Positions 10,015-32,187 of a DNA stretch of 64,000 nt are shown here, piece by piece. Numbering within the stretch: position 1 is the first letter of the stretch; each line of letters starts with the position of its first letter. A program made the position numbers and the translations under genes. Source of the DNA: Micromonospora echinofusca (GTDB lineage: Bacteria; Actinomycetota; Actinomycetes; Mycobacteriales; Micromonosporaceae); NCBI RefSeq assembly GCF_900091445.1, contig NZ_LT607733.1, forward strand, positions 6,864,001 to 6,928,000, written 5' to 3'. The notes beneath the pieces are model-generated. The model had not been told where the DNA came from. It did not search any database and saw only the letters and a list, made by a program, of their open reading frames with translations.

Positions 10015-12039
10015 ATGGAACGTACGCGTTTCTTCCGCCGACCGGTGGTCTGGATCATCCTGGTCATCCTCGGCGCCGTTGTGCTCAGTCAACTGTTCAC
10101 CGCTGGTCCCAGCTACCACCGGGTGGACACTTCCATTGCGCTCGACCAGCTCAACAAGGGCGGCATCGACAAGGTCGTCTTCCAGGACAAGGAGCAGACG
10201 CTCCGGCTCGACCTGAAGGACAAGGCCAAGTTCGGTGACACCGACACCGACCGGATCGAGGCGCAGTTCCCCTACGAGGTCGGCGACGAGGTCTGGAACG
10301 AGGTCCTCGAGGCCAAGGCGAACAACCGGGTCACCGGCCCGGCCAACGTCGAGGTGTCGTCTGACAGCATCTGGGTGAGCCTGCTGGTCAACCTGCTCCC
10401 GATCGCCCTGCTGGTGCTCCTGCTGCTCTTCTTCATGTCGCAGATGCAGGGCGGCGGCTCCCGGGTGCTCAACTTCGGCAAGTCCAAGGCGAAGATGATC
10501 ACCAAGGACACGCCGAAGACCACGTTCGCGGACGTGGCCGGGGCCGAGGAGGCCGTCGAGGAGCTGCACGAGATCAAGGACTTCCTGCAGAACCCGGCGA
10601 AGTACCAGGCCCTGGGCGCCAAGATCCCGAAGGGTGTGCTGCTCTTCGGCCCGCCCGGCACCGGTAAGACGCTGCTGGCCCGCGCCGTCGCCGGCGAGGC
10701 CGGGGTGCCCTTCTACTCGATCTCCGGCTCGGACTTCGTGGAGATGTTCGTCGGTGTCGGCGCCAGCCGGGTCCGCGACCTCTTCGAGCAGGCCAAGGCG
10801 AACGCGCCGGCCATCGTCTTCGTCGACGAGATCGACGCCGTCGGCCGCCACCGCGGCGCCGGCATGGGCGGCGGTCACGACGAGCGCGAGCAGACCCTCA
10901 ACCAGCTGCTCGTCGAGATGGACGGCTTCGACACCAAGGGCGGGGTCATCCTGATCGCCGCCACCAACCGGCCGGACATCCTCGACCCGGCGCTGCTGCG
11001 CCCGGGCCGCTTCGACCGGCAGATCCCGGTGGATGCCCCCGACATGGAGGGCCGCAAGGCGATCCTGCGGGTGCACGCCAAGGGCAAGCCGTTCACCCCC
11101 GACGTCGACCTCGACGCGGTGGCCCGGCGTACCCCAGGCTTCAGCGGTGCCGACCTGGCCAACGTGATCAACGAGTCCGCACTGCTCACCGCCCGTAAGG
11201 ACCAGCGTGCGATCACCAACGACTCCCTGGAGGAGTCGATCGACCGGGTGATCGCCGGTCCGCAGCGCCGCACCCGGGTGATGAGCGACCAGGAGAAGAA
11301 GATCACCGCGTACCACGAGGGTGGGCACGCGCTGGTCGCCTGGGCGTTGCCGCACGCCGCGCCGGTGCACAAGGTGACGATCCTGTCCCGCGGTCGGTCG
11401 CTGGGCCACACCCTGGTCCTGCCCACCGAGGACAAGTACACCCAGACCCGCGCCGAGATGGTCGACACCCTGGCGTACGCACTGGGTGGCCGGGCCGCCG
11501 AGGAGTTGGTCTTCCACGAGCCGACCACGGGCGCCGGCAACGACATCGAGAAGGCCACCCAGCTGGCCCGCGCGATGATCACGCAGTACGGCATGAGCTC
11601 CAAGCTCGGCGCGATCAAGTACGGCACCAGCGGCGACGAGCCGTTCCTCGGCCGCAACATGGGCCACGAGCGGGACTACTCCGACGCCGTCGCCGCCGAG
11701 ATCGACGGCGAGATGCGGGCGCTGATCGAGCTGGCCCACGACGAGGCCTGGGAGATCCTGGTGGAATACCGGGACGTCCTGGACAACATCGTGCTGGAGC
11801 TGATGGAGAAGGAGACCCTCTCCACCGCCGACATGGCCCGGATCTGCGCCCGGGTGGCCAAGCGACCGCCGATGGCGCCGTACAACGGCTTCGGCAAGCG
11901 CCAGCCCTCCACCGAGCCGCCGGTGCTCACGCCGGCCGAGAAGGACGCGCTGAAGGTGCAGGCCCAGGCCGACGGCGCCCAGGCCACGGTGGGCGGCGGC
12001 ACCGCGAGCAACTCCAACAACTCGGACGGTACGCACTGA
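10015..12039 (+). CDS. ftsH: ATP-dependent zinc metalloprotease FtsH
   Basis: Membrane-anchored AAA+ protease of 674 residues that degrades damaged membrane proteins and short-lived regulators. Two membrane spans (about 10-28 and 120-140) flank an extracytoplasmic domain. Walker A GPPGTGKT is at 212-219. The zinc site is HEGGH at 434-438, with Asp510 in [10 protein letters not shown] as third ligand. The tail is Asn/Ser-rich and disordered. The ATG at 10015 gives the conserved start [13 protein letters not shown]; no good Shine-Dalgarno is seen. It ends just before a strong hairpin and folE. Confidence 0.96.
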
Positions 12040-12049
12040 GCACCGACCC

Positions 12050-12086
12050 GACGGCCAGTTCCCGGGAGCACCGGGAACTGGCCGTC
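12050..12086. terminator. Perfect 16-bp hairpin after ftsH
   Basis: GACGGCCAGTTCCCGG and its exact reverse complement are separated by five bases, starting 11 bp after the ftsH stop. It looks like an intrinsic terminator without a T-tract. It falls inside the frame-open leader of folE and so bears on the folE start. Confidence 0.65.
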
Positions 12087-12179
12087 TCCGCGACCGAGCC
12101 GGACGGCGACGACACCCTCGACTACGTCGCCGCGCGCCTGATCAGCGGCAAGCTCACCGGCAGGCCCATCGAGGAGACC

Positions 12180-12743
12180 ATGGACCTCGGGCGGATCGAG
12201 AAGGCGGTCCGCGAGATCCTCATCGCCGTCGGGGAGGACCCGGACCGCGACGGGCTCCAGCAGACGCCGGCCCGGGTCGCCCGCGCGTACGCGGAACTCT
12301 TCGCCGGCCTCCGGGTCGACCCGGCCCAGGTGCTCAGCACCACCTTCGAGGCCAACCACGAGGAGCTGGTGCTCGTCCGGGACATCGACGTGATGAGCCT
12401 CTGCGAGCACCACCTGCTGCCGTTCCGGGGCAGCGCGCACATCGGCTACATCCCCGGGCCGGACGGCCGGATCACCGGCCTGTCCAAGCTGGCCCGGCTG
12501 GTCGAGGTCTTCGCCCGTCGGCCCCAGGTGCAGGAGCGCCTCACCTCCCAGATCGCCGACCTGCTCATGGATCGCCTCGCGCCGCGCGGCGTGGTGGTGG
12601 TGCTCGAGTGCGAGCACATGTGCATGGCGATGCGCGGCATCCAGAAGTCGGGCGCCAAGACCATCACGTCCGCCGTACGCGGCACCCTTCAGCGCGACGC
12701 CAAGTCCCGCGCCGAGGCGATGGCGCTGATCATCCCCCGCTGA
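12180..12743 (+). CDS. folE: GTP cyclohydrolase I
   Basis: First enzyme of tetrahydrofolate synthesis, converting GTP to dihydroneopterin triphosphate; 187 residues from the ATG at 12180. The zinc ligand motif SLCEHHLLP (Cys75, His78) and the later LECEHMCM block with the third ligand are present, with the [12 protein letters not shown] substrate region. The frame stays open for 48 codons upstream to a CTG that overlaps the ftsH stop, and its translation ends [11 protein letters not shown], which looks protein-like. A longer form from a rare CTG start is possible. The rest of the folate operon lies 13 kb away. Confidence 0.93.
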
Positions 12744-12809: not shown

Positions 12810-13610
12810 TCAGCCGGCCAGCATCGCGAGCAACAGGCCCGCGCTGACCAGCACCGCCGGGACCAGGCACACCAGGGCGCCCAGCCGGGCCGTGCGCGCC
12901 ATCCGGCCGCCCTCCGGCGGCGGGAAGAGCCGACCCACGCCGATCCAGCCCGCCGCGAACGCCACCGCCGGCATCGGCAGACCGCAGACCAACGCGGCCA
13001 CGCTTGCCGCCCCGGTACCGGTCGCCACGAACAACGCCACCTGGATCGCCGGCACCAGCAGCGCCAGCGGCCCGTACACGAGCAGGTTCCGCAGGTGCGG
13101 CGGCCAGGCGGCCAGGCGCGGCAGGCCGCGCGCGGAGAGCGTCGCGTCCGCGGCGTCCGCCCGGCCCCGGGCGGCGCGCAACGCGGCCAGCACCGCCGCC
13201 GGCCCGCCCGCCATCGCCCGGGCCGCCTCGGTCAGCTCCGGCGGCGTCGGGACCAACGAGATCGGCGGTACGCCCCGCTCGCGCAACCGGGCCTCCTGCG
13301 AGGCCAACCGGGTGCGTACGGCGGTCAGCTCCTCGCGGGCGGCCTGCACCGACCGGGCCTGCTCGCCGGCGGCGGTGGCCGCGTCGCGGCGCACCCCGTC
13401 GAGCTGACGGGCGGCGGCGAGGTACTCGGTCCACGCGGCGGCCACCGCGTCGGCGTCCCCGCCGGTGCCCGCCTGCCCGCCGGTGCCCGCCTGCCCGGCC
13501 GTGCCCGCCTGCCCCGCCGGGTCGGTGCGTTCCGGTGCCGGATCGACCCCGGAACGCTGCCGCCCCGGCGCGGACTGTCCCGCCGTGGTCCGTGCCCCAC
13601 CGCGGGTCAT
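12810..13610 (-). CDS. Hypothetical membrane protein
   Basis: Protein of 266 residues, not matched to a known family. It has a disordered N-terminus with GQAGT repeats (about 25-45), a long charged helix likely to form a coiled coil (about 55-110), and three or four hydrophobic segments in the last 100 residues, with the hairpin-like PLALLVPAIQVALFVA first. Its start overlaps the stop of the ATPase gene upstream as ATGA, so the two are translationally coupled and probably work together, for instance as membrane anchor and ATPase. Confidence 0.6.
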   Translation of the reverse strand: MTRGGARTTAGQSAPGRQRSGVDPAPERTDPAGQAGTAGQAGTGGQAGTGGDADAVAAAWTEYLAAARQLDGVRRDAATAAGEQARSVQAAREELTAVRTRLASQEARLRERGVPPISLVPTPPELTEAARAMAGGPAAVLAALRAARGRADAADATLSARGLPRLAAWPPHLRNLLVYGPLALLVPAIQVALFVATGTGAASVAALVCGLPMPAVAFAAGWIGVGRLFPPPEGGRMARTARLGALVCLVPAVLVSAGLLLAMLAG

Positions 13611-16144
13611 GCCGCCTCCTCCTCGCCGAAGGGGACCAGCATGGTGCCCTGCTCGCCGGGGCCGTCCCAGAGCACCGCCCGGCCCGGGCGGGGCCGCCAC
13701 TGCACCTGCCGGCCGAAGACCGATGCGAGCTGCGCACCCGGCAGGTCCACCACGGCCACGGCGGCGAGCTTGTCCACCTCGCCCTCGGGTTCCAGCAGCG
13801 CGGCGAACGACGGCACCGTCCGCCAGCGGCCCAGCAGGTGCCGGCCGATGGGCGGCCCCTCCCGCAGCAGCGCGCGGAGCCGCTCCGGGGGCAGTTGCTC
13901 CGGCGTCGGCACGTCCAGTCCGAAGACCACCAGGAAGGCCGGCGCGGGGTCGTCCACGGCGGCGAGCAGGCCCGGGAGGTCCACCGTCTCCACCGGGTGG
14001 CGCCCCGCCAGGTCGGCTGCCAACGCCTCGACCACCGGGCGGCACTCCTCGTCCGGCGCGGCCAGCACGAAGCGGGCGCCCCCGGGGGCGTGGTGCACGG
14101 CCGCGCTGCGTACGGCGGTGACCAGCAGCCGGGCCGCCTCCGGCCCGGGCCCGAGCACGGCCAGGTTCCGCCCCGGCGCCGGCCCGAGCGACACCGCGAC
14201 GGTGGTCCGGGGCACGTCCACCGCCCGGCCCAGCAGGGCGGCGGGCCCGGGTGCCTGCCCGGCGAGCGCCGCCCGGTACCGGGGATCGTTGCGCAGCATC
14301 GGGCGGGCGTAGCCGGCGAAGACCACCGGCGGGGACGCCCCCTCCGGGCGGGCCGACCAGAGCCGCTGCCGCAGCGCCTCGACGGTGTCGGGATGGTCCT
14401 GCGGGTCCGGGAACCGGACCATCCGCTCGTGCCCCCGGATCGCGCCCCGGGGCCCGCCGAGCCCGCCGGCGGTGTTCACCACCGCGCTGCCCACCGGCAG
14501 CCCGGCGGCCGAGTCGTTCGTCGGCTCCAGCACGGCACCTCCGCCGGGCAGCGCCACCCGCACCGGGAACTGCCCCAGCACCGAGTCCCGGTCGGTACGC
14601 GAGCCCAACCCCAGGTCGCCCTCGCCGGCCAACACCAGGTGCACCCCGTACGCACGTCCGGTGCGGGCCAGCGCGTCCAGCCGGGCGGCGGCCTCGGCGG
14701 CCAGCCGGTCCCGCTCGACGAAGAGCAGCGGCAGGTTGTCGAGCACGCACACGACCCGGGGCATCGCCCGGTGCTGGCGCAGCTCGGCGAAGCGTTGCCC
14801 GCCGGCCCGGGCGCCAGCCTCCTCGCGCCGGCGCACCTCCGCCACGAGATCGTCCAGCAGACTCAGCACGTACTCCCGGTCGGCCGCCATCGCGGCAGCC
14901 CGCACCTGCGGGATCCACGACCGGTCCCGCTCGGTCTGGAGAAACTCCACGAAGGACTCGGCGTCGGCGAGGTCCGCCAGGTAGAGGGCCAGCTCGTCGG
15001 GACCGTAGCGGGCGGTCAGGCCGAGCAGCGCGGTGGTGAGGAAGGTGGACCGACCCGCGCCCGAACGGCCACTGACCAGCCAGTGCGGCGTCAACTCCGA
15101 GAAACCGAGGGACACCGGCCGGCCACCGGCGTCCCCGACGGTCGTGGTCAGCCCGCCCACCCCGCTCGCCGTCCACAGCTCCTCGTCGGCCGCCGGCAGC
15201 AGGTCGGTCAGTGCCAGCCGGGAACCCGCCTCCACCTGCGCGGCCAGCCGGCGGCAGACCGCGTCGACGAGTTCGCCCGGCGGATCGGTCTCGATGAAGA
15301 CCGGCGAGTTCAGCCCGCCCGGCGGCTCGGCGCCCGGCCCCGCGAACGGGCTGCCCGGCGGATCACCCAGCAGCGCGTACGCGGTGCGGACCGCCAGCGT
15401 CGTCGCCCTCGGCAGCGGCTCCCGGCCGCCCGCCGGGGGCCAGCCCGCCACGACGAGATGCAGGCCGGCGGACCGACCCGACCCGGCCAGGGCCACGATG
15501 CGGGCCAGGTCGGTGGGCCCGGTCGACTCGGGCAGTGCGGCGATCACCAGCAGCAGCGTCCGGTCGTGCCGGCGACGCCCGCTCGTCCCCGGGGCCACCC
15601 ACTGCTCGGCCTCGGTGAGCACCGCCCGCAGACCCGCCACGTCCACCGCCGGCGGCGGCAGCAGGCCCGCGTCCGCGAGCGGCGCGAACGGCGCGAGGGC
15701 CGTGCCGGTCGCGTCGATCGCGCGGACCAGCAGCGCCCCGGCCGGGGTCGCCGCCAACAACCGCAGCAGTACGCCCCGCAGCAGCCCCGCCACCCGGGGA
15801 TCGCGGGCGTCGACGTCCACCGCGAGGTGACCCGTGCCGAGCAGCGGCACCAAAGCGGGGAACCGGGCGTCGTCCAGCGGTGCCGCCGTACCGACCCGGA
15901 CGAAGGGAGGCGGCCCCTCACCGGCCGGTGTGGTCGGTGCCGTCGTCTCCAGGGGAGCGCCCGCCCAGCCGGGAGCCAGCACCGCCGCCGCGGACCGGAG
16001 GCGGTCCGCCAGCTCGTACTGGCGGCGCTGATCGGCAGGGACGGGCCGGGTGTCGTCGAGGACGCTCGCGGCGGCAGTCGCGGTGGCGGCGGCCCGCCGA
16101 TGCAGTGCGGCGGCGCGGTTGGTGCGTGCCTTCGGACCGACCAC
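13607..16144 (-). CDS. FtsK/EccC-like ATPase with altered Walker A
   Basis: About 845 residues. The central part resembles FtsK/SpoIIIE and EccC domains: a strand ending HWLVSG, then a P-loop near residue 360, a Walker B-like strand RVVCVLDNLPLL and the GYGVHLVLAGEG-type strand (GRAYGVHLVLAGEG here). The P-loop reads GRSGAGRST, with Arg in place of the catalytic Lys, and the Walker B strand lacks the usual Glu. A second, more degenerate domain follows, so nucleotide hydrolysis may be weak or lost. The GTG at 16144 is chosen for GGAGG 11 bases upstream; a GTG at 16153 and starts up to 16237 are possible. A FHA- or ESX-linked role is only a guess. Confidence 0.65.
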   Translation of the reverse strand: MVGPKARTNRAAALHRRAAATATAAASVLDDTRPVPADQRRQYELADRLRSAAAVLAPGWAGAPLETTAPTTPAGEGPPPFVRVGTAAPLDDARFPALVPLLGTGHLAVDVDARDPRVAGLLRGVLLRLLAATPAGALLVRAIDATGTALAPFAPLADAGLLPPPAVDVAGLRAVLTEAEQWVAPGTSGRRRHDRTLLLVIAALPESTGPTDLARIVALAGSGRSAGLHLVVAGWPPAGGREPLPRATTLAVRTAYALLGDPPGSPFAGPGAEPPGGLNSPVFIETDPPGELVDAVCRRLAAQVEAGSRLALTDLLPAADEELWTASGVGGLTTTVGDAGGRPVSLGFSELTPHWLVSGRSGAGRSTFLTTALLGLTARYGPDELALYLADLADAESFVEFLQTERDRSWIPQVRAAAMAADREYVLSLLDDLVAEVRRREEAGARAGGQRFAELRQHRAMPRVVCVLDNLPLLFVERDRLAAEAAARLDALARTGRAYGVHLVLAGEGDLGLGSRTDRDSVLGQFPVRVALPGGGAVLEPTNDSAAGLPVGSAVVNTAGGLGGPRGAIRGHERMVRFPDPQDHPDTVEALRQRLWSARPEGASPPVVFAGYARPMLRNDPRYRAALAGQAPGPAALLGRAVDVPRTTVAVSLGPAPGRNLAVLGPGPEAARLLVTAVRSAAVHHAPGGARFVLAAPDEECRPVVEALAADLAGRHPVETVDLPGLLAAVDDPAPAFLVVFGLDVPTPEQLPPERLRALLREGPPIGRHLLGRWRTVPSFAALLEPEGEVDKLAAVAVVDLPGAQLASVFGRQVQWRPRPGRAVLWDGPGEQGTMLVPFGEEEAA

Positions 16145-16327
16145 CGCGTCCACCCCCTCCGCCCGAGGTCGGCAACCCCTCCCCGCGCAGAGACCGTAAC
16201 CCAGCCGGGCCGACTCGTCCGGGATGCGCGGCGACACTGCGCCGGGGATGTCGTGGATCTCACCGATGGGGAGTGGTCCGTCACGATCCGCTGCATCTGG
16301 GGCATTGGGTCTACCGCGTCCAGCCGC

Positions 16328-16339: not shown

Positions 16340-16912
16340 GTGGAATCAGTGCAGCCCCCCGCCGGTTCCCAGGTCTCCCGCGTACCGGCGCAACGGCCCC
16401 CCTCCGACCACCTGGCGCCGCCCTCGCCGGCCCCGGCGCCGGAGCGGCCACGGCGGCGGCTGCGCACCGTGCTCACGGTGGTCACGAGCGTCGTCGTGGC
16501 ACTCTGCCTGGGCGGGGTGGCCGCCGGATTTGTGCTCTACAACCGGGCTGCGGCACCCGACCGGAGCGCGCCCGACGTGGTGGTGGACAACTACCTCCGT
16601 GCCTTCCTCGTGGACCGCAACGACACCCGGGCCAACCTCTTCACCTGCGAGGGAAACGGCGATCGAACAGCGGTCTCCGGCTTGCGCAGCGAGATCGAGC
16701 AGCGCGAGGCCGATTTCGGAGTCGTGGTCAGAGTCAGTTGGGGGCCACTCACCCGAACCGAGACGCGCGAAGGCGAATCGGTGGCCACGACGCTCACCAT
16801 CTCCGGCTCAGCGAATGGCCAGCCTCGCAGTAGCAGGCACGAGGACTGGGTGTTCGAGGTGGTGGAGGGGAAGGAAGGCTGGCGGGTTTGCAGTGGACAG
16901 AAGGCCGGTTGA
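16340..16912 (+). CDS. Hypothetical single-span protein with NTF2-like outer domain
   Basis: Protein of 190 residues: a Pro-rich cytoplasmic N-terminus, one membrane helix (about 47-68) and an extracytoplasmic domain of about 115 residues starting APDVVVDNYLRAF, the pattern of small NTF2/SnoaL-like lipoprotein domains. Two cysteines (in FTCEGN and RVCSGQ) could form a disulfide. Its function is unknown. It is the only plus-strand gene in this block, and its stop lies 3 bp from the stop of the minus-strand operon, so it probably has its own leaderless promoter. Confidence 0.7.
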   Translation: MESVQPPAGSQVSRVPAQRPPSDHLAPPSPAPAPERPRRRLRTVLTVVTSVVVALCLGGVAAGFVLYNRAAAPDRSAPDVVVDNYLRAFLVDRNDTRANLFTCEGNGDRTAVSGLRSEIEQREADFGVVVRVSWGPLTRTETREGESVATTLTISGSANGQPRSSRHEDWVFEVVEGKEGWRVCSGQKAG

Positions 16913-16915
16913 GCG

Positions 16916-17518
16916 TCACTCAATCCAGAGCAGATGCACCGGAACCTCTAGTGTGGTTGGTGACTGGCCTCGCCAGGCCCACCGGTACCAATCCACCTCC
17001 GGCGTCACCCGGACGCAGATGTCGCCTTCCGCTCCGGAGTAGGTCTCGGTGACGGCTCGCAGGTCCCGGTGCTCGACGGCGTCGACGACGTGCACCACCC
17101 GGCGACCCGTGACGGCGTCCGACTCGAAGACCGGGGTCGGAGCGCGGTGCGCCGGGGCGTCCAGGGAGACCAGGCGGACGCCCGTCTCGCGGTCCACCGA
17201 CGCGTCCGGCCGCCGGGCCCCCACCGTCTCCACCCAGACCCGCTCAACTGGGATGAGCGGCGCGAAGACCTCCACCTGGTCGGACTCCGCCCGGTACCAC
17301 TCGTGCTCGGGGATGACCGGAACGTAGGTCCGGCTGTTCTGCACCACCCGGTCGTCCGCGCGAAGGTCACCGCGCCAGCCGAGCCCCGGGAGGCCGACCA
17401 GCACACGCCGCCCACGGAGCTCGACGCGGCCGGTGGCCGGCACGATCTCGATCGGTCGGGGCGGCTGGGGCGCCCAGTCCGGATGGTCGGCGAACGGGTC
17501 GGGAAACGGCTCGTTCAT
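16916..17518 (-). CDS. Hypothetical protein, last gene of the secretion-like operon
   Basis: Protein of 200 residues with no recognised family, no signal peptide and no membrane span. It is rich in Val, Arg, Trp and Tyr, with beta-type alternation. It starts 13 bp after the stop of the M23/lysozyme-like gene on the same strand and so belongs to that operon. It may be a cytoplasmic accessory or effector-type protein; this is inference from position only. Confidence 0.65.
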   Translation of the reverse strand: MNEPFPDPFADHPDWAPQPPRPIEIVPATGRVELRGRRVLVGLPGLGWRGDLRADDRVVQNSRTYVPVIPEHEWYRAESDQVEVFAPLIPVERVWVETVGARRPDASVDRETGVRLVSLDAPAHRAPTPVFESDAVTGRRVVHVVDAVEHRDLRAVTETYSGAEGDICVRVTPEVDWYRWAWRGQSPTTLEVPVHLLWIE

Positions 17519-17531
17519 GACGGCGAGCGTC

Positions 17532-18698
17532 TCATCCGACGCCCTTGAGCGGCGCGCCGCGCGACCGCATGAACGGCACCGGATCGATGGCGCCGCGGCT
17601 GCTCCGGTCCCCGTCCTCGTGTACCTCGAAGTGCAGGTGCGGGCCGGAGGAGTTGCCGCTGCTGCCCACTTCCCCGATGACCGCGCCGGCCTCGACGAGC
17701 TGGCCGACCTTGACCCGTGGCTTGCTCACCATGTGGCAGTAGCGGGTGATGAAGCCGCCGGCGTGCAGGACGTCGACGAACCAGCCGCAGCCCCCCTTGT
17801 TCGGCCAGCCGTCGACGTTGCACGTGAGCAGGTTCCGATTGTCCGGGTCGCAACGGGACACCAGGACGCGTCCGGTGGCGGCGACGCGGATGTCGGTGCC
17901 CTTCGGGGCGGCGATGTCGACCCCGTTGTGCCCCGGTCGGCTCGCGGTGCGGAAGCCCGAGCCGACGCCGCCGGGAATGGGAGCCGTCCAGCCCGAGGCC
18001 GCGATCTGCCCGGCGGCGGCCCGGTCGCACGCCTTCTTCCCGTCGACCAGCGCGATCCGGGCGGCCCCACCGGCCAGCGCGTTGACGATCCGGGCGGCCA
18101 TGTCCTCGTGCTTGGCGTACGCGTCCGGGAAGGCGCTGATCTGCACGGCCTGAGCGGCCCGGGTCAGCGGCATCGTCTCCCAGCCGGGCACCTTGACGAG
18201 CTTCTCGTAGAACTTCCGGGCGGCGTACTCGGGCGTCATCCGCTGCGCCACGGTGCCCCAGCCCGCCCGCTGCTGGAACAGCCCGACGGAGTCGTGATCG
18301 GCACCGACGCCCTCGTTGGGCAGGTTCTCGGACTCGCCGACGGTCCGGTTCGCCAGGTTGCGCAGCCGGGACTCCTGCATGGCGGTCGCCACGGCGATCA
18401 CCCAGCCGCGCGGCGGCACCTTCATCTCCTGCCCGACCTTGATGATCCGAGCGGCGTTACGAAGCTGGACCTGACCGTAGCCGGACATCCGGGGGATCTT
18501 GCCGCGAACATCAACCTGGTAGTTCTCCTTGCAGTCCATGCTCACCGGGGCCATGTCCGTGGACTCGCCGCCCAACTCCGTGAGGAAGAAGGCCCCGGCA
18601 CCGCCGGTGCAGCAGAGCAGGGCGAGCGTCGCCGTCAACGCGGCGGCCAGTGCGCCGAGTCGGAGCTGTCGACCGCGCGGTCGCGTCCCGTCGCTCAT
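17532..18698 (-). CDS. Membrane-anchored wall hydrolase: lysozyme-like plus M23 peptidase
   Basis: Protein of 388 residues with one N-terminal membrane span (about 14-38). A lysozyme/transglycosylase-like domain follows, with probable catalytic Glu109 in ATAMQESRL and the companion SVGLFQQRAGWG. The C-terminal M23 metallopeptidase domain has His257 and Asp261 (GHNGVDIA), His322 and HLH at 354-356. It should cut both glycan strands and peptide bridges. In Gram-positive type IV secretion systems a VirB1/CwlT-like hydrolase opens the wall, usually pairing a lysozyme domain with NlpC/P60; M23 is the variation here. It overlaps the VirB8-like gene by four bases. Confidence 0.88.
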   Translation of the reverse strand: MSDGTRPRGRQLRLGALAAALTATLALLCCTGGAGAFFLTELGGESTDMAPVSMDCKENYQVDVRGKIPRMSGYGQVQLRNAARIIKVGQEMKVPPRGWVIAVATAMQESRLRNLANRTVGESENLPNEGVGADHDSVGLFQQRAGWGTVAQRMTPEYAARKFYEKLVKVPGWETMPLTRAAQAVQISAFPDAYAKHEDMAARIVNALAGGAARIALVDGKKACDRAAAGQIAASGWTAPIPGGVGSGFRTASRPGHNGVDIAAPKGTDIRVAATGRVLVSRCDPDNRNLLTCNVDGWPNKGGCGWFVDVLHAGGFITRYCHMVSKPRVKVGQLVEAGAVIGEVGSSGNSSGPHLHFEVHEDGDRSSRGAIDPVPFMRSRGAPLKGVG

Positions 18699-19252
18699 TT
18701 CTGCTCCCAGTCCACGGCGTCCACCAGCCAGCGCCCGTCGGGCGCCACCAGTTCGAGGCGGAGCCGACCCGTGTCGAGCGGAACCAGCACCTCGACGAAG
18801 TTCTCGGCCCGGGGCTGAAGAGTGACGTCACCGTCGACCTGACCGGTCGGCACCCCGGACGGGTCGACGCCGGCCAGCTTGTCGGTCAGCACCGGGGTGG
18901 ACAGGGGACGCAGGCCCTCCTGCCACTGCTCCGCCGTGGTGCCCGGTTTGCCGAGCCAGGCGGCGACGAAGCGTTCGGCGGTCTGCTCCGGTGTGAGTTC
19001 GCCGGGGCGGGTGACCGGGGACGGCGGAGCGCCCGTCGAGAACGCGCCGTCATCACCGGTGGTGGGGGCGACCGTGGTGATCGGTCGGTCGGGGCGGTTG
19101 CTGAGCCCGGAGGTGGGATCGCCCGGCCCGGACACGAGCCGCGCCGCGCCGATGATCCCGAACACGAGTACGGCGATGCCGACCGCGATGCCGAGCCGGG
19201 ACCGGAGTACCCGGGTGACCAGGAATTCGACTGTCCGCCGCATCGCACTCAC
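18695..19252 (-). CDS. VirB8/TcpC-like membrane protein
   Basis: Protein of 185 residues with a short cytoplasmic N-terminus, one membrane helix (about 20-39), a Pro/Thr-rich linker and an outer domain of about 100 residues beginning TPEQTAERFVAAWL. That layout and the NTF2-like alpha+beta pattern match VirB8/TcpC components, which form the outer scaffold of Gram-positive type IV secretion systems. Sequence alone is weak, but its place between VirB6-like and hydrolase genes, with four-base overlaps on both sides, supports the call. Confidence 0.65.
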   Translation of the reverse strand: MSAMRRTVEFLVTRVLRSRLGIAVGIAVLVFGIIGAARLVSGPGDPTSGLSNRPDRPITTVAPTTGDDGAFSTGAPPSPVTRPGELTPEQTAERFVAAWLGKPGTTAEQWQEGLRPLSTPVLTDKLAGVDPSGVPTGQVDGDVTLQPRAENFVEVLVPLDTGRLRLELVAPDGRWLVDAVDWEQK

Positions 19253-21210
19253 CGCGCCTCGGAGCGGATCCGCGGGGTGGGTCGGTCAGGCGCGCGCTCG
19301 GCGGACCCGGGACGGTAGATGGCGAACGAGGGGCTCTCGTCCGGCACGTCCGGCTCGGTCCAGGCGGCCGGCTGCCGCCGCCGGGGCCTGGGTGCGACCG
19401 GGCGCGAGGTCTCCCGGTCCTCGGTCGGCGTCGGCTCTTCGGTGGCCTGCTCGCGGCCGTTGGGACGCTGCCGCTCCTCTGTGCCACGGGTGGCGGGGCC
19501 GCCACGGTTGGCGGCGTGTGCCGGATCCTCCAGCCGTGCCTCGGGTCGGAGGGTGCGCTGCTCCGCCACCACGGTCCGACGCCGGCCCATCGTCGGCTCG
19601 GCCGTCCCGCCGGGTTCCGCGACGTCGAGCCGGGCGGCGGTGCGCATGTCCCGGAAGAAGCGCCGGTGCCACGAGCCGGCCGAGCCGACCGCCTCGCTGC
19701 TGTCCTTGCCCCCGAGTTGGGTGATCCGGCGGTAGGGGCGCAGCAGCAGCCAGCCGACCACGCCGCAGAGCCAGACCAGCACCACCTGGAGCCAGCCGGG
19801 CAGGGTCGGCGTGCTCATGATGAGGTCGACTGCGAAGAGATAGATGGCGGCGCCGGTGCCGAAGATGGCGATGTTGAAGACGGCGGCGACCACCGCGTTC
19901 GCCAGCCGTCGCAACCCGGCGCTGGCCGGGCGCATCAGGCCCACCGTGCCGAGGATCGGCGCGGCGATCACCGCCCACCGGAAGATCAGGAAGCCCAGCA
20001 GCACCAGCAGCGAGGCGGTCAGGTCGAACATCGCGAAGAGAACCGCGGCCACTACGGCGATGAATCCGGCACCCACCCGGTCCATGTCCCGAACACCCTG
20101 GAGGTACTCGTACGCCTCCGGGTCCTCGGTCTCGATCTGCTGCGCCACCCGCGCCCACTGCTGTTGCTTCGCCTTGATGGTGGCAGGTCGCGTGGCCGGG
20201 TTCGACCGGAGCTTCGCCGCCTCCTCCCAGGAGAGCGACTTCGCGTCGTAGAGCGCCGGTCCGTACTTCTTCGCGGTCTCGCTGTCTGCTGAGCCGAGCA
20301 CGCCTCGCAGCCAGTTGCGGTAGAGCATCGCCTCGGTGGCCGTGTCACTGGCCCGTACGGCTGGCGGACGATTGTCTTTACAGGCCGCCGGGTTCGGGTC
20401 ATCGCACTGGCCGGGTGGCGTGTCCTTGGTGGCGGGGCCGACCGCGTCGTGGACCACGCCCAGGGTGGTGACGAGGGTGCCGTCGGCGATGTTGGCCGAC
20501 TTGACCGGCCAGGCGGCCAGGGCGGTCACCGCCACCATCACCAGCAGGGCCCAGCCCGCCGTGGTCATCGCGTTGCTCATGTCCGACTGGCGGGAGCGCC
20601 AGAGCAGGTACAGGCCGACCACGCAGAGGGTCACGATGCCGAAGACGCTGAACACCTTCTGGTAGACGGCCTTGGTCGCCTGGTCCACCAGCGGGTCGGC
20701 CCAGCCCCACATCGAGCGCGGGTCCCAGGCACGTTCCCGCAGCGCGTTCGAAGCGCCCACGATCGCTGTGGCGATCATGAACTCGCCGTTGGCCACCGTG
20801 TTGGTGAACTTGTAGTCGGGGTGCAGCACCGCGGTCGCGCAGCCGTCGACGTCGTACGTCGAGTAGCTGTACCCCGCGTAGCCGTAGTCGCTGTAGAAGC
20901 CCTTCGGGCCCAGTTGCTTGGCCGACTCCGGGCGGGACGCGAACCAGCCGGCGAGCCCGGAGTCGGGGGCGCCGGGAGTGGGGGCGTTCCGGCACTTGAC
21001 CTCGGAGTCGGCGACCTCCTTGAGCTTGGCGACGCAGGCGCGGAAGTCGGCCTGCCACTCCGGGGTGGTGCAGAGGTCGGCGTTCGCCTGGGCCGTCAGC
21101 GGTGCGGGGGCGGCCGCCGCGGCACCGACTGCCGGCCAGCCGATGGTCGCCCCGGCGAGTACGCCGACCGCGAGCAGGAACGCCGCCAACCGTGCCCGGG
21201 CCCGCGCCAT
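19249..21210 (-). CDS. VirB6/TrbL-like polytopic membrane protein
   Basis: Protein of 653 residues with a signal-like N-terminal segment, a Cys-containing outer region up to about 180, then five to seven membrane helices (two near 190-240, the main group about 378-500) and a charged disordered cytoplasmic tail of about 150 residues. This resembles VirB6/TrbL/TcpH inner-membrane channel subunits. The start lies one base after the stop of the VirB4 gene, and its end overlaps the VirB8-like start. A length above 600 with a long tail is common in Gram-positive systems. Confidence 0.7.
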   Translation of the reverse strand: MARARARLAAFLLAVGVLAGATIGWPAVGAAAAAPAPLTAQANADLCTTPEWQADFRACVAKLKEVADSEVKCRNAPTPGAPDSGLAGWFASRPESAKQLGPKGFYSDYGYAGYSYSTYDVDGCATAVLHPDYKFTNTVANGEFMIATAIVGASNALRERAWDPRSMWGWADPLVDQATKAVYQKVFSVFGIVTLCVVGLYLLWRSRQSDMSNAMTTAGWALLVMVAVTALAAWPVKSANIADGTLVTTLGVVHDAVGPATKDTPPGQCDDPNPAACKDNRPPAVRASDTATEAMLYRNWLRGVLGSADSETAKKYGPALYDAKSLSWEEAAKLRSNPATRPATIKAKQQQWARVAQQIETEDPEAYEYLQGVRDMDRVGAGFIAVVAAVLFAMFDLTASLLVLLGFLIFRWAVIAAPILGTVGLMRPASAGLRRLANAVVAAVFNIAIFGTGAAIYLFAVDLIMSTPTLPGWLQVVLVWLCGVVGWLLLRPYRRITQLGGKDSSEAVGSAGSWHRRFFRDMRTAARLDVAEPGGTAEPTMGRRRTVVAEQRTLRPEARLEDPAHAANRGGPATRGTEERQRPNGREQATEEPTPTEDRETSRPVAPRPRRRQPAAWTEPDVPDESPSFAIYRPGSAERAPDRPTPRIRSEAR

Positions 21211-21211
21211 G

Positions 21212-24200
21212 TCACGCCTCCATGTTCGGCAGGATGGCCGGCAGCACCCCGGCCGCCGCGGCGATCGCGGCGGGGGTGGTGTCGAGGTGCTCCAGCAGCC
21301 CGTCGACGTACGAGACGTCGACGCGGACCTTCTGCACGCGGCCGTCGACGTCCCGCATGACGAATTCCCGGAAGCCGAGCCGGGTCGCGCTGGTGGCGTC
21401 GGCGGTGGAGAGGGAGGCCAGCGTGGCCTCGTAGCCGTCGTTGACGGGCACCCGCAGCAGGCGGAGCGCTTCGGAGGCGATCTCCGCGTCCTCGGCGATG
21501 CGGCCGACGAAGACGGTCGAGACCAGGTTCTGCACGTCGAGGCCGAGGATGTCGCGCGGGTTCTGCGAGGCGACCAGCGCGGCGAGGTTCCACTTGCGGG
21601 AGTCGCGCGCGAGCCGGACCAGGAACGACCGCCCGGAGCGCCATCCCTCCATGAAGTGCGCCTCGTCCAGGCCGACCAGCTTCCGCGAAGACATGGAGCC
21701 GCCGTAGCAGCGGCGTACGGCCAGCCGGTGCGCGGTGTGCAGCATGGGCAGGGCCAGCGACTCCTCAGCGGACCAGTATTCCCGCTCGATCTTCAGGTCG
21801 GGCAGTCGCAGCCCGGCCATGGTGATCACGGTGAGGGCGGCGTCCGCGCCGAGCAGCCCCTCCGGCGGCCGGCCGAAGAAGAGCATGGCCAGCGGCATCT
21901 CGGCGGTGTCCAGCAGCAGGTTGGCCAGTTCCTTGCCGGCGTCGTCGTCGAGCTGACTGAGGCAGGCGACCACGTCGTCGAGGGTGGAGGTCTCCTCCGC
22001 CGGCACCTGGCGTACGGCGTGGCGGAAGAGGGTGGCGGTGGACGCCTCCCGGGCGACCTGCGGGGGCACCAGCATCATGCAGATGTCCTGCACCAGCATC
22101 CGCCGTTCGGCACGGGCGTTGGAGACCGCGATCTCGAACTCCCGGTCGCCGGCGGCCCCGGTGCCGAACTCGCTGCGAAGCGGCGTCGGGATGAGCGAGT
22201 ACGGGGCCAGGGTGCCGTGCTCGGAGCCGGTCAGGTTCAGCACCCGCGCGTACGGCCGCAGCTCCGGCATGGCGCAGAGCCGGGCGAGCGGGCCGGACGG
22301 GTCGAGCAGCGTCACCTGGACCCCGCGCCGCGCGGCGAGGTAGCCGAGTGCGCCGAGCAGGGTCGACTTGCCGCCGCCCGGTTCGGCGACGAAGACGGCG
22401 AGCCCGGAGCGTTCGCGTACTTCCATCGGGAAGTGCAGGTCGAGGAAGACCGGCCGGCGGCAGGTGCCGGCGGTGCGTCCGATGAGGTCGCCGCGCCGGT
22501 CGCCGACGGTGGAGGCGGCCTGGGGGAGCGCGGCGGCGAGCAGGTTGACCGGCATCCGCCGGACGTAGCCGGTGTTGGCGATCGGCTCGCCGGGGATGAA
22601 CTCGCGGGCCAGCCAGTCCTGGTTCTTCGGGTGTTGCAGCGAGATGCGCAGCTCGCGCGAGTAGAGCTGGATGAGCCGGCGGGCCCGCTCCAGGCACTCC
22701 TCGCGGTTGCGGCCGCCGACGGCGATCCGGTGCCAGCCGTGCGCGCGGGCGGAGTCGACCGGCAGGCCGGTGGTCATCTCGTCGCCGATCACCAGGGCCC
22801 GCTTGGCCAGCCGCTCCAGCTCGGGCGGGGCGTCGATGCCGTGCTCGGCGTAGTCGAGCTGCTGGGAGCGGATCATCCGCAGCCGGTGCTCCAGGTTTCG
22901 GAAGGAGTCGCCGGAGCCGAGGATGTCGACGCGGGTGGAGAGCTCCATCGGCCACGGCAGCCGCTCGTGGAAGTGCAGCCAGGGCTCGTGCCGCTCGGGG
23001 ATCTCCAGCGGCTCCATCCGGCCGACCGCCAGCACGGCGACGTGTCGCTCCTCGCCGGTCATCCGGTTGACCAGCTTGACGGTCGAGCCGTACGGGGTGC
23101 GGTAGCGCTCGACCTGCTCGGTGAGGGCGAGCAGGTCGCCACGTTCCCACCGGCCGTCGGTGAGCGGGGAGAGTTCCCCGGGCGGCGCCATGCACAGCGC
23201 CACCGAGCGGTAGAGCAGCCACTCCAACTCCTGGGCGGTGACGCGCCGGCCGCGCATGCCGAACGCGCCGAGCACCTCGTCGAACTGCTCGACGGTGCGG
23301 CTGAGCTTGCGGCGTTCGCCCTCGGCGACGCCCCGGCCGAAGGTGCGCAGCAGCCGTTCGGTGAGCGAGTCGCCGAGGGAGCGCCGGGCGAAGGTGACGC
23401 CTAGGTAGGTCTGCCCCTCGGCGTGGTTGACCGAGAGCAGGTGCCGCTGTGCGGCCACGAGGTGGTCGCCCCAGCCGGCGGTGCCGGGCACGTCGGGCAG
23501 CGGCGAAGGGGTGTGCGCGTCGATGGTGCGGGCCCACTCGTCGGCCGGGAAGGGCCGGGTGGTGCGCCGCAGGTGCAGCCGGAAGCCGGCCAGCCCGGCG
23601 TACTGCTCGGAGATCGCCGAGAGCAGCGCCTCCCGTTCGGCGTCCGGCCGGAACGCCCAGCGCACCTCCGGCAGCCAGTACCAGGCGGTGACGGTGTTGG
23701 GGGTGAAGGTGAGGTGGCCGGCGATCTCGGTGATGGCCAGCTCGACCGCCGGGTCCCGGTCCCCGAACTTGATCTTCGGTGCCTTGACCCGGACGGGCTT
23801 GGTGGGCCGGTCGCGCCGGCCGGCGGAGCGTTGCCGCGGCGGCGCCACCTCCCGGCCGGCCCGCTCCGACGGGCGCTCTCCGCTGCGGCGGGACGCCGGC
23901 TCGGCCGCCTGGTCCGGCGCGGGCGGGTCGAGCGGTGCCGGCTGCAGAGAGGCGGGGTGGGACGACGGCGGTGCCGCCGCGACGGGCGGCACGCCGGCCG
24001 CCGCGTTCTCCGCCACCGCCGGTGGGCGGAGCGTGGGCAGCCGGTCCCCTGACTGGTGCGGCACCCGGGACCTGGCCGGTCGGGCGGGCGGCTCGTACGC
24101 GTCGGCCGGGGGCTGTTCGACGGCCGGTGTGATCGCCGGGGACGTCCGGTGGGTCGCGTCGGCCGGGTGGTCGGTCCGGTAGGCGTCGGCCCCGTGGCCC

Positions 24201-24613
24201 GCCCGGGCGGGCGGCGGCAGGGGAGCGGCGGGAGCCGGCGGGAGCGCGGCCGGTGCGGCGGCCGGCTGCTGCCCGATGGCGGGTTGCTCCCGCCCGCCGG
24301 CTCGCTGCGGGGGCGCCGTCGGCCGGGTCGCGCCGGGACGCGTGCCGCCGAACAGGTCGAGGAAGGGCGAGTCGATGTCGGCGCTGTCGCCGGTGCCGGC
24401 GGGTTGCGGCTCGGCCGGCGGCGTCCGGCGCGGCGCCGGACGGGGTGCCTGGAACACGCCCACTCCGCCGTGCCCGGGTGTCGTCACCAGGGCCGGATCG
24501 AGGACGACCTCGTCGGCCTCGGGCTCGTCCGGGTAGTCGAACGACCGCGCACGGTTACCGTGTGGGACGGCCGGACGCCCTGCCGGGGAACCCGGCGTGG
24601 AACTGCGATTCAT
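21212..24613 (-). CDS. VirB4-family ATPase (SCO6880-like)
   Basis: Protein of 1133 residues. The first 280 or so are Pro-rich and disordered, followed by a VirB4/TraC-type N-terminal domain and a C-terminal motor domain. Walker A AEPGGGKST contains Lys749; Walker B LVGLDEAH has Asp983-Glu984; VASQNPRD is the sensor-like segment. VirB4 ATPases energise pilus assembly and substrate transport in type IV secretion. The actinobacterial SCO6880 family has this layout and occurs with PrgI-like proteins, as here. No relaxase or VirD4 coupling protein is encoded nearby. Confidence 0.85.
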   Translation of the reverse strand: MNRSSTPGSPAGRPAVPHGNRARSFDYPDEPEADEVVLDPALVTTPGHGGVGVFQAPRPAPRRTPPAEPQPAGTGDSADIDSPFLDLFGGTRPGATRPTAPPQRAGGREQPAIGQQPAAAPAALPPAPAAPLPPPARAGHGADAYRTDHPADATHRTSPAITPAVEQPPADAYEPPARPARSRVPHQSGDRLPTLRPPAVAENAAAGVPPVAAAPPSSHPASLQPAPLDPPAPDQAAEPASRRSGERPSERAGREVAPPRQRSAGRRDRPTKPVRVKAPKIKFGDRDPAVELAITEIAGHLTFTPNTVTAWYWLPEVRWAFRPDAEREALLSAISEQYAGLAGFRLHLRRTTRPFPADEWARTIDAHTPSPLPDVPGTAGWGDHLVAAQRHLLSVNHAEGQTYLGVTFARRSLGDSLTERLLRTFGRGVAEGERRKLSRTVEQFDEVLGAFGMRGRRVTAQELEWLLYRSVALCMAPPGELSPLTDGRWERGDLLALTEQVERYRTPYGSTVKLVNRMTGEERHVAVLAVGRMEPLEIPERHEPWLHFHERLPWPMELSTRVDILGSGDSFRNLEHRLRMIRSQQLDYAEHGIDAPPELERLAKRALVIGDEMTTGLPVDSARAHGWHRIAVGGRNREECLERARRLIQLYSRELRISLQHPKNQDWLAREFIPGEPIANTGYVRRMPVNLLAAALPQAASTVGDRRGDLIGRTAGTCRRPVFLDLHFPMEVRERSGLAVFVAEPGGGKSTLLGALGYLAARRGVQVTLLDPSGPLARLCAMPELRPYARVLNLTGSEHGTLAPYSLIPTPLRSEFGTGAAGDREFEIAVSNARAERRMLVQDICMMLVPPQVAREASTATLFRHAVRQVPAEETSTLDDVVACLSQLDDDAGKELANLLLDTAEMPLAMLFFGRPPEGLLGADAALTVITMAGLRLPDLKIEREYWSAEESLALPMLHTAHRLAVRRCYGGSMSSRKLVGLDEAHFMEGWRSGRSFLVRLARDSRKWNLAALVASQNPRDILGLDVQNLVSTVFVGRIAEDAEIASEALRLLRVPVNDGYEATLASLSTADATSATRLGFREFVMRDVDGRVQKVRVDVSYVDGLLEHLDTTPAAIAAAAGVLPAILPNMEA

Positions 24614-24662
24614 GCGACCGCCTCATCCGCGTCGTTCGACTGCCTGGTCGGGGTGCGACCGG

Positions 24663-25025
24663 TCATGCCAGTTCCTCCCGGATCCTGATCCGACTGCCGA
24701 CCAGGCGGGGGTCCCGCTGCTCCGCGGCCGGCTCCCGGGTCCGCCGCCAGTCGGTCAGCGCGGTGCGGATCACCATGCGCGCGGGCCGGTCCGGGTCGAC
24801 GTACCGGAAGATGAACGAGGTGCTCACGATGGCGAGCGCGATCTCCCAGGCGGGGAAGAGCTCCACCTGCAACGTGAACAGCCAGTGGATGAACATGTAG
24901 AGGGGAACGAGCAGCATGAACAGCCCGTACTGGGCGTACGGCAGGTGGACGGGAAGGGTGTAGCCGGGCGGCCCGAGGTAGACCAGGCGAGCCCGGTAGA
25001 TGTCGTCGTCGGTGCGCAGCCGCAT
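24663..25025 (-). CDS. PrgI/VirB3-like membrane protein
   Basis: Protein of 120 residues with two adjacent membrane helices (about 32-50 and 57-74), a basic N-terminus and a charged C-terminal tail. Size and topology match PrgI/TcpE/VirB3 proteins, which anchor the VirB4 ATPase to the membrane. It lies 49 bp before the VirB4 gene and 13 bp after the pilin-like gene. Confidence 0.7.
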   Translation of the reverse strand: MRLRTDDDIYRARLVYLGPPGYTLPVHLPYAQYGLFMLLVPLYMFIHWLFTLQVELFPAWEIALAIVSTSFIFRYVDPDRPARMVIRTALTDWRRTREPAAEQRDPRLVGSRIRIREELA

Positions 25026-25038
25026 CTCGTGCCCGCGC

Positions 25039-25353
25039 CTATTCGAAGATCAGGTCGATCAGGTAGTCGCCGATGAAGAAGAGTGTGGCGGCTCCGGCGA
25101 TGAAGGCGAGCCCGACGATCGCGATCGCCGAGCTGGTGAGGACCTTGGAGATCTCACCCCGGCTGGCCCGTCCGATGAAGATGACGCCCAGCACGGCCAG
25201 CAGGATCGGTGCGATCTTGCTGGCGAAGAACGTGACGACACCCTCGGTGTCGATGCCCTTGGGCGCGGGCTCGGCGAGTGGAGTCGACGCCAGGGTGGAG
25301 AGCGTGTGGGCGGCGGCGGACGTCGCCGTCTCCATCAGCTCGATGGCGATCAC
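25039..25353 (-). CDS. Small two-span membrane protein, VirB2/TcpD pilin-like
   Basis: Protein of 104 residues with an N-terminal stretch ending near residue 40 and two hydrophobic helices (about 43-61 and 72-93) separated by a short basic loop GRASRGE. This is the profile of VirB2/TrbC-type pilins and of TcpD. The GTG at 25353 is chosen because GGGAGG lies 5-6 bases upstream. It is the first gene of the operon, the usual place for the pilin-like subunit. Identity is inferred from topology and context. Confidence 0.6.
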   Translation of the reverse strand: MIAIELMETATSAAAHTLSTLASTPLAEPAPKGIDTEGVVTFFASKIAPILLAVLGVIFIGRASRGEISKVLTSSAIAIVGLAFIAGAATLFFIGDYLIDLIFE

Positions 25354-25547: not shown

Positions 25548-25576
25548 AGCGTACGGGCACCCACTGTTTGCGACAA
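25548..25576 (-). promoter_or_regulatory. Predicted promoter of the secretion-like operon
   Basis: On the minus strand TTGTCG (25576-25571) and TACGCT (25553-25548) are separated by 17 bp, a good sigma-70-type promoter. It would give a leader of about 190 nt before the pilin-like gene. Confidence 0.5.
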
Positions 25577-25696: not shown

Positions 25697-26614
25697 GTGA
25701 CCGATCTGGTACGGGCCTCGGCCCCGGTGGTGATGGGCGTCCTCAACGTCACGCCCGACTCCTTCTCCGACGGCGGACGGTACGCCGACCTCGATGCCGC
25801 CGTCGGACACGGCGTGCGGTTGCGGGCCGAGGGCGCCCACCTGGTGGACGTGGGCGGCGAGTCCACCCGGCCCGGTTCCGACCGCGTCGACGCGGCGACC
25901 GAGACGGCCCGGGTCGTCCCCGTGATCCGGGAGCTGACCGCCGCCGGCGTGCCGGTCAGCATCGACACGACCCGCGCGCGGGTCGCCGAGGCGGCCCTCG
26001 CCGCCGGTGCGGCCGTGGTCAACGACGTCTCCGGCGGCCTCGCCGACCCCGACATGGCCCGCGTGGTGCGCGACGCCGGCTGCCCCTGGGTGCTGATGCA
26101 CTGGCGGGGCCACTCCCGCCAGATGGGGGAGCTGGCCCGCTACGGCGACGTCGTCGCCGACGTGCGCGCCGAGCTGCGCCACCGCGTCGACGAGGCGTTG
26201 CGCGCGGGGGTCGGCGCCGATCGCATCGTCATCGACCCGGGCCTCGGCTTCGCCAAGACGGCCGCGCACAACTGGGAGCTGAGCAGGCACCTGTCCGACC
26301 TGCTGGACCTGGGCTTCCCGCTGCTCTTCGCGTCCAGCCGCAAGTCGTACCTGGGGCGGCTGCTGGCCGGCCCCGACGGCACCCCGCGCCCCACGGACGA
26401 CCGCGACGTGGCCACCGTCGCCACCAGCCTGCTCGCGGTTGCCGCGGGCGCCTGGGGCGTACGCGTGCACGACGTCCGGGCCACCGTGGACGCCCTCGCC
26501 GTCTGGCAGGCCACGGGCGCGCCCCGCCTGGCGTCCGCGTCCACCGGCGGGGCCCCGGCGGCCCACGCCGGCGCCGGACGGGACCGCACCGCGGACCACG
26601 GAGGAGACCGATGA
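25697..26614 (+). CDS. folP: Dihydropteroate synthase
   Basis: Folate enzyme of 305 residues that joins 6-hydroxymethyl-dihydropterin pyrophosphate to p-aminobenzoate, the target of sulfonamides. The family signature GVLNVTPDSFSDGG starts near residue 14, DVGGESTRPG is the second motif, and IDPGLGFAK and FASSRKSYLG form the rest of the active site. The C-terminal tail of about 35 residues is low complexity. The start is a GTG preceded by TACCGT with no Shine-Dalgarno, so it is probably leaderless. Its stop overlaps the folB start (ATGA). Confidence 0.95.
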   Translation: MTDLVRASAPVVMGVLNVTPDSFSDGGRYADLDAAVGHGVRLRAEGAHLVDVGGESTRPGSDRVDAATETARVVPVIRELTAAGVPVSIDTTRARVAEAALAAGAAVVNDVSGGLADPDMARVVRDAGCPWVLMHWRGHSRQMGELARYGDVVADVRAELRHRVDEALRAGVGADRIVIDPGLGFAKTAAHNWELSRHLSDLLDLGFPLLFASSRKSYLGRLLAGPDGTPRPTDDRDVATVATSLLAVAAGAWGVRVHDVRATVDALAVWQATGAPRLASASTGGAPAAHAGAGRDRTADHGGDR

Positions 26615-26976
26615 CCGACCGGATCCAGCTGACGGGCCTGCGGGCGCACGGCCGGCACGGGGTGTACGACTTCGAACGCGAGCAGGGGCAGGACTTCGTC
26701 GTCGACGCCGTGCTGGAGATGGACCTCGCCCCGGCGGCCCGCTCCGACGAGGTGGGCGACACCGTCCACTACGGCGAGTTGGCCGAACGGCTGGTCGCGG
26801 TGGTGACCGGCGAGCCGGTCAACCTGATCGAGACGCTCGCCGACCGGCTGCTGGCCGTGTGCCTGGCCGACCCCCGCGTCGAGGTCGCCACGGTCACCGT
26901 GCACAAGCCGGAGGCGCCCGTGCCGCACGTCTTCACCGACGTGGCCGTCACGATGACGCGGCGGCGGGACCGGTGA
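26611..26976 (+). CDS. folB: Dihydroneopterin aldolase
   Basis: Protein of 121 residues that cleaves 7,8-dihydroneopterin to 6-hydroxymethyl-dihydropterin and glycolaldehyde. The N-terminal GLRAHGRHGVYDFEREQGQ and the C-terminal catalytic VHKPEAPVP with its Lys are typical. It overlaps folP by four bases and folK by four bases (GTGA), so the three enzymes are translationally coupled. Confidence 0.95.
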   Translation: MTDRIQLTGLRAHGRHGVYDFEREQGQDFVVDAVLEMDLAPAARSDEVGDTVHYGELAERLVAVVTGEPVNLIETLADRLLAVCLADPRVEVATVTVHKPEAPVPHVFTDVAVTMTRRRDR

Positions 26977-32073: not shown

Positions 32074-32187
32074 GCGCGAGGAACGCAGCGCAGCGGAGTC
32101 CCGCAGTCGCGAACGAAGAGGTTGGCCGGTGAGCGCGAGGAACGTAGCGCGGCGGAGTCCCGCAGTCGCGAACGAAAGGCGGGCCCG
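32070..32187. repeat. Two tandem 59-bp repeats between permease genes
   Basis: Copies at 32070-32128 and 32129-32187 share GTGAGCGCGAGGAACG and CGGAGTCCCGCAGTCGCG, with few mismatches. The 13-mer GCGGGCCCGGTGA occurs at both outer junctions (32061 and 32180), so the array may have split an original GTGA overlap of the two permease genes. The sequence resembles the repeats upstream of ftsH in inverted orientation. Confidence 0.8.

Follow-up and report, generated by a model that had tools for sequence, protein, structure and literature searches.

A seven-gene operon in Micromonospora echinofusca

The window analysed here is a stretch of 64,000 nucleotides from Micromonospora echinofusca (contig NZ_LT607733.1, positions 6,864,001 to 6,928,000); feature coordinates below are positions within it unless they refer to the genome. 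Gram-positive type IV secretion systems (T4SSs) are chiefly known as conjugation machines. The window holds an operon of T4SS-like parts in an unusual state: it is fixed, occurs nearly family-wide in the Micromonosporaceae and has no transfer genes adjoining. The original prediction, made from the letters alone, had placed seven minus-strand open reading frames (ORFs) with overlaps or short gaps at this locus, and our analysis found all of them:

25353-16916, minus strand: operon of seven genes, in the order pilin-like, VirB3-like, VirB4, VirB6/TrbL-like, VirB8-fold, hydrolase, last protein
25548..25576, minus strand: TTGTCG-N17-TACGCT, a promoter-like sequence that precedes the operon here and in 22/22 chosen related loci
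25039..25353, minus strand: pilin-like (VirB2-position) protein, 104 amino acids (aa), two membrane spans; GTG start at 25353, with GGGGAGG ahead of it
24663..25025, minus strand: VirB3/PrgI-like protein, 120 aa, assigned by position, size, spans and plasmid homology
21212..24613, minus strand: VirB4 ATPase, 1133 aa, a variable tail (about residues 1-270) containing DIDSPFLDLF (79-88), followed by the ATPase core
19249..21210, minus strand: VirB6/TrbL-like membrane protein, 653 aa, linked to TrbL by a profile chain
18695..19252, minus strand: VirB8-like protein, 185 aa, with an NTF2-like domain and a single membrane helix
17532..18698, minus strand: cell-wall hydrolase, 388 aa, a lysozyme-like part and an M23 peptidase
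16916..17518, minus strand: final gene of the operon, 200 aa, with two small repeats that resemble beta-barrels

Related loci were collected by a genome scan, and the sample used throughout comprises the best 80 of 258, with titles that all belong to Micromonosporaceae genera. The genes are tightly packed in these loci, with median spacings of 13, 49, 1, -4, -4 and 13 bp from the pilin-like to the last gene. The upstream site, in the form TTG...-N17-TACGCT, is kept in 23/23 sequences (the window and the chosen loci) and is a putative promoter.

Identity of the operon proteins

The VirB4 protein matches AAA_10 in Pfam (E = 2.3e-23) and TcpF in NCBIfam (E = 4.8e-20), the latter at 71 bits, far below the TcpF cut-off of 1100. 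Its predicted catalytic residues are real: the Walker A motif reads AEPGGGKS, with Lys749, and the acidic pair Asp983-Glu984 is kept, each in 79/79 readable loci. The tail ahead of the core is proline-rich and variable except for DIDSPFLDLF (window 24350-24379), which is identical in all 55 of the 80 loci that are readable there and is a possible docking motif.

The VirB6-like protein has no direct Pfam match, but a profile chain leads to TrbL, with a match above cut-off at its end, in agreement with the channel component originally proposed; NCBIfam adds a weak match to CD3337/EF1877 (E = 7e-4, below cut-off). An AlphaFold2 model likewise agrees with the VirB8-like assignment, with domains of PrgL and TraM nearest, in a protein whose NTF2-like fold is common to many others. 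The hydrolase matches M23 in Pfam (E = 1.7e-24), and its residues 76-367 match the tape-measure family phrog_10030 (E = 5.9e-63); we take its first part to be lysozyme-like from motif and position. The last protein is modelled by AlphaFold2 with a pLDDT of 84 and finds only weak SH3/Tudor-like matches; its gene is present in 80/80 loci.

The two proteins encoded first are small. The pilin-like protein, which has no Pfam match, is assigned from its position and two membrane spans, and its gene was detected in 66/80 related loci and in 14/14 loci of further genera of the family. The VirB3-like protein is homologous to the gene preceding VirB4 on plasmids and on an actinomycete integrative and conjugative element (AICE), both described below, and 1 of 12 relatives matches TcpE weakly (E = 0.008). 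A nearly full Gram-positive VirB set had been claimed: the VirB4, VirB6, VirB8 and hydrolase parts of that claim stand, whereas the VirB3 and pilin labels are putative, being drawn from gene position, protein size, the membrane spans and the homologues on plasmids. Profile and fold matches extend beyond the ATPase.

Conservation across the Micromonosporaceae

Synteny across the family bears out a conserved arrangement. The five genes from VirB4 to the last gene are present in the same order and on the same strand in 80/80 loci, and all seven were found in order in 66/80. The remaining 14 loci lack a detectable pilin-like gene, VirB3-like gene and folP; twelve of them are contig ends within about 200 bp of VirB4, and two (L042 and L071) are not at contig ends. 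The operon lies between housekeeping genes:

9754..12743, plus strand: ftsH and folE (NCBIfam)
25712..26976, plus strand: folP and folB (NCBIfam domains inside ORFs; folP start approximate)

Both folP and folE flank the operon, one on each side, in 56/80 loci; taken singly, folE was found in 63/80 and folP in 66/80, and folE was not near the operon in three Asanoa loci.

The VirB3-like protein served as a marker, and it has exactly one match in 58/61 genomes of the family, representing 42/44 genera. The misses are one genome that is 69% complete and two genomes of a single genus (L102 and L103). The latter genus carries a different, partly related system, with another VirB4 and an M23 hydrolase 46% identical to that of the window, which is possibly a replacement of the operon. 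AAA_10, which also catches other ATPases, matches 59/61 family genomes. In a class-level sample the marker occurs in 3/118 genomes, of which two are from Micromonospora and the third is from Phytoactinopolyspora mesophila. A VirB4 tree of 28 rows places the 11 family rows in one clade with 100/100 support and a long stem; another four rows carry a long-branch flag, and part of the deep branching order is not settled.

A further sample of 14 loci from additional genera of the family separates the genes into two groups. The pilin-like, VirB3-like, VirB4, VirB6-like and hydrolase genes were each found in 14/14 and VirB8 in 12/14 by tblastn; L107, among the two loci without a match, has a VirB8-like ORF in place. 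The last gene was found in 10/14, and an FtsK-like gene and a coiled-coil gene that lie beyond it (see below) in 8/14 each. Because of these counts, we regard the genes from pilin to hydrolase as the core and the rest as accessory. The operon is kept even in genomes of 3.5-4.0 Mb (L107 and L108).

Ratios of non-synonymous to synonymous substitution rates (Ka/Ks) against Micromonospora gifhornensis, which are rough at high GC, are 0.05 for VirB3, 0.12 for the last gene, 0.14 for VirB4, 0.15 for VirB6 and 0.24-0.28 for VirB8, the hydrolase and the pilin; in the comparison with Salinispora the hydrolase value rises to 0.42. At the level of sequence divergence, these values show purifying selection on the operon. 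Between the window (24.6-25.4 kb) and one related locus (L002), Ks is 0.02-0.03 for the pilin and VirB3 genes and 0.16-0.31 for the remaining genes in the comparison, a hint that the start of the operon has recently recombined.

Genomic setting and mobility

The operon had been described as having no relaxase, VirD4 coupling protein, integrase or attachment repeats, and this holds for the families searched. The window has no PF00589 integrase (serine integrases unsearched), and the nearest tyrosine-integrase matches lie about 60 kb to the left and 80 kb to the right. No attachment-like repeats flank the block at 9-30 kb, there is no tRNA in the window, and the GC content of the operon resembles that of its surroundings. 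The sole VirD4 match of the genome (PF02534, at 1.934 Mb) and its sole TrwC relaxase (PF08751, at 1.979 Mb) are about 2 Mb away, assuming a circular chromosome; no other TrwC was found in the genome, with other relaxase families unsearched and RepSA unsearched genome-wide.

These two genes belong to the surroundings of another T4SS-like locus of this genome (1934209-1941413 and 1975988-1980259), where VirD4 occurs with membrane genes and an ATPase of about 478 aa; the TrwC relaxase is about 45 kb away. Across the family VirD4 is patchy, with PF02534 matches in 38/61 genomes and none in 22 of the 58 genomes that bear the marker. The operon itself does not show the patchy distribution of an integrative and conjugative element (ICE), given its near-universal marker and its fixed neighbours, and does not look mobile in its present location.

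Relatives on mobile elements

A mobile relative is found in Phytoactinopolyspora mesophila (L101 and L137), where a module with the same gene order and a related last gene sits in an AICE. The last genes of the two systems align by hhalign with a probability of 93% (E = 3.9e-7), and identities to the window are 39% for VirB4, 27% for VirB6, 32% for VirB3 and 43% for the hydrolase (best piece). The AICE differs from the window operon in carrying, within the element, a tyrosine integrase, RepSA (E = 1e-97), an FtsK gene and two copies of a 48-bp repeat; the copies are 22,538 bp apart (about 22.5 kb; contig 32.0-54.6 kb) and one overlaps a tRNA-Pro. No relaxase or VirD4 was found in the 14 ORFs scanned with Pfam, the small pilin, VirB3-like and last ORFs being unscanned. 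AICEs have been described as relying on one FtsK-like protein in place of a T4SS (PMC3218068). The P. mesophila element, which has an FtsK gene as well as a T4SS-like module, is an exception to this view.

Similar modules occur on the plasmids pSM17C, pSSFR2, the 891-h plasmid, a Nonomuraea plasmid and pRHL3, each with small genes, VirB4, a large membrane protein, a VirB8-like gene and a hydrolase in order. Their hydrolases are of NlpC/P60 or M23 type and their VirB4 proteins are about 32-38% identical to that of the window. On 4/5 plasmids an FtsK/T4CP-type gene, annotated or matching, lies near the module, and on the fifth there is a homologue (75%) of one of these genes. Four of the five are typed as non-mobilizable, and pRHL3 has a MOBP relaxase. 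The existence of a mobile AICE relative with a related last gene points to the origin of the operon, which most likely descends from such a mobile element, a direction that we infer.

An adjoining FtsK/EccC-like pair

Beyond the original prediction, two genes in the interval 16237-12810 accompany the operon downstream:

13607..16237, minus strand: FtsK/EccC-like ATPase, 876 aa, with degenerate Walker A (GRSGAGRS) and Walker B motifs; accessory
12810..13610, minus strand: coiled-coil membrane protein, overlapping the FtsK-like gene; accessory

The FtsK-like gene matches PF01580 (E = 4.2e-16), and its profile finds EccC nearest among sequences of the PDB. Among the related loci it was found in 76/80 and the coiled-coil gene in 70/80. 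The two genes have a median spacing of -4, and a stretch of 482-942 bp (median 679 bp) separates the FtsK-like gene from the operon. The Walker A lysine is gone in 67/75 readable loci; the eight that retain it belong to Asanoa, Phytohabitans and Plantactinospora. The protein may thus be a lineage-specific pseudo-ATPase.

Comparison with known systems

The cmdABCDEF cluster of Streptomyces coelicolor (SCO4126-4131) is the nearest studied analogue. It is required for normal sporulation and chromosome segregation, its CmdB is VirB4-like, ATPase point mutants fail to complement, and its authors had already considered a type IV-like channel (PMC2782261). Like the operon, the cluster is chromosomal, combines a VirB4-like membrane ATPase with membrane proteins and is conserved in a species group, and no conjugation genes are reported in the portions of that study that describe it (PMC2782261). 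It differs in having six genes, another arrangement and an ATPase of about 470-480 aa, as judged from putative cmd loci (L128 and L131) and not from a comparison with the SCO sequences. The window proteins find no tblastn match in the putative cmd loci (L128-L132), where gene sizes and order differ.

Chromosomal loci of Streptosporangiales (L119-L123) are organized on similar lines, with genes for a pilin-like protein, VirB4, TrbL, a VirB8-like protein and a wall hydrolase in a common order; the cluster is widespread in the group. Among the matches listed are 24 f15 genomes, with best E values of 5e-70 to 2e-65, and 92 genomes, not broken down by family, had no match. Their VirB4 is only 28-29% identical to that of the window and falls on its own branch, their hydrolase is of SLT plus NlpC/P60 type, and the link between the VirB8-like proteins is weak. 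Another VirB4-like cluster (L124 and L125), frequent in family f18, matches AAA_10 at about 1e-44 and has a T2SSE/VirB11-type ATPase gene nearby.

The operon shares the logic of VirB4, VirB6, VirB8 and hydrolase with pCF10 (Prg), pIP501 (Tra) and pCW3 (Tcp). Those three are conjugation systems with a relaxase and a coupling protein. For M. lupini, one VirB4 gene is listed with proteins of unknown function around it (PMC4182475), and no such system appears in the parts of a 2025 T4SS review that deal with actinobacterial terms (PMC12857230).

A T4SS-like channel probably turned to cellular use

We propose, with a probability of roughly 0.7, that the operon encodes a Gram-positive T4SS-like channel of the cell envelope, which an ancestor of the Micromonosporaceae acquired from a mobile element of actinobacteria and which has since been kept in the core genome. 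The domestication step, as opposed to a conjugative element, had been raised as a possibility in the original prediction and is well supported by the single copy in 58/61 genomes, the intact VirB4 motifs, the one VirB4 clade, the lack of a tyrosine integrase or repeats around the operon and the presence of an AICE relative elsewhere. Ordinary conjugation by the operon alone is unlikely because there is no relaxase and no conserved VirD4. Because the module is fixed in the chromosome of nearly every sampled member of this family of soil and marine bacteria, and the genes that normally serve DNA transfer are missing from its vicinity, it probably now does work for the cell itself. In such a machine, VirB4 would energise the assembly or work of a channel of VirB3-, VirB6- and VirB8-like proteins, the lysozyme/M23 enzyme would open the wall locally, and the pilin-like protein would be a part of the channel or of the surface. 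Export of protein or DNA, as the original prediction suggested, would be a possible role. By analogy with cmd, the likeliest use of the channel would be in hyphal growth or sporulation, for export or for handling DNA across envelope or septum; this is the weakest step, and less likely than not. One qualification applies to the domestication reading: a member of the coupling-ATPase superfamily, the FtsK/EccC-like protein, does adjoin the operon, albeit with motifs degenerate in Micromonospora.

The channel might instead act as a helper in trans, moving the DNA of plasmids, AICEs or the VirD4/TrwC locus, which would supply relaxase and coupling protein. The genome does contain VirD4 and a TrwC relaxase elsewhere, and related modules serve plasmids and an AICE. 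We nevertheless consider this unlikely: 22/58 marker-bearing genomes have no PF02534 match, an ATPase gene and membrane genes of its own adjoin the VirD4 locus of this genome, and a benefit to passing elements poorly explains retention across the family.

A hybrid machine, in which the operon works with the FtsK/EccC-like pair and the EccC-like protein in place of VirD4 recruits substrates, would account for the frequent proximity of the two units, for the likeness to EccC and for the FtsK/T4CP-type genes that accompany the module on plasmids and on the AICE. Yet in the sample from additional genera the pair was not found in 6/14 loci, all of which keep the operon (L107, L108 and L113-L116); two of them, L113 and L114, leave little room for it within the slice examined. 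The Walker lysine is mostly lost, the protein has no specific similarity to plasmid FtsKs beyond Walker A, and the two units are 482-942 bp apart. Such a machine is improbable on these grounds. That the operon is what is left of an old, decaying integrative element (a defective ICE) and now functionless is very improbable. In favour of this reading, there is no relaxase, VirD4 or integrase beside the operon, its FtsK-like neighbour has degenerate motifs, and ICE-finding tools would class such loci as defective ICEs (PMC9513070). Against it, the operon is kept in nearly all genomes and genera, including genomes of 3.5-4.0 Mb, with intact VirB4 motifs and Ka/Ks well below 1.

If the envelope-channel proposal is true, a core, vertically inherited T4SS-like channel without a nearby relaxase in an antibiotic-producing actinomycete family would clearly exemplify how a transfer machine can become a cell machine, and would connect the older Streptomyces cmd sporulation phenotype to a wider pattern. 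A broader idea, speculative and in our estimate doubtful, is that of a distinct actinobacterial type IV class, in which a VirB4/VirB6/VirB8 channel on AICEs and linear plasmids is paired with an FtsK-type pump that replaces VirD4 and relaxase. At least two large lineages would have made it a permanent machine for hyphal development, which in the Micromonosporaceae would date back to roughly when the family arose, and DIDSPFLDLF and the tandem-barrel last protein would be host-specific adaptors.

Other features of the window

A further gene absent from the original prediction occupies the gap between the operon and the FtsK-like gene:

16340..16912, plus strand: membrane-anchored protein, 190 aa, conserved

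It has nucleotide matches in 76/81 loci, identities of 52-73% by tblastn among the matches listed (40 rows) and no Pfam match; position is what would tie it to the operon. Elsewhere in the window, 31390-34163 holds ordinary genes for an ABC transporter of the glycine-betaine/choline type.

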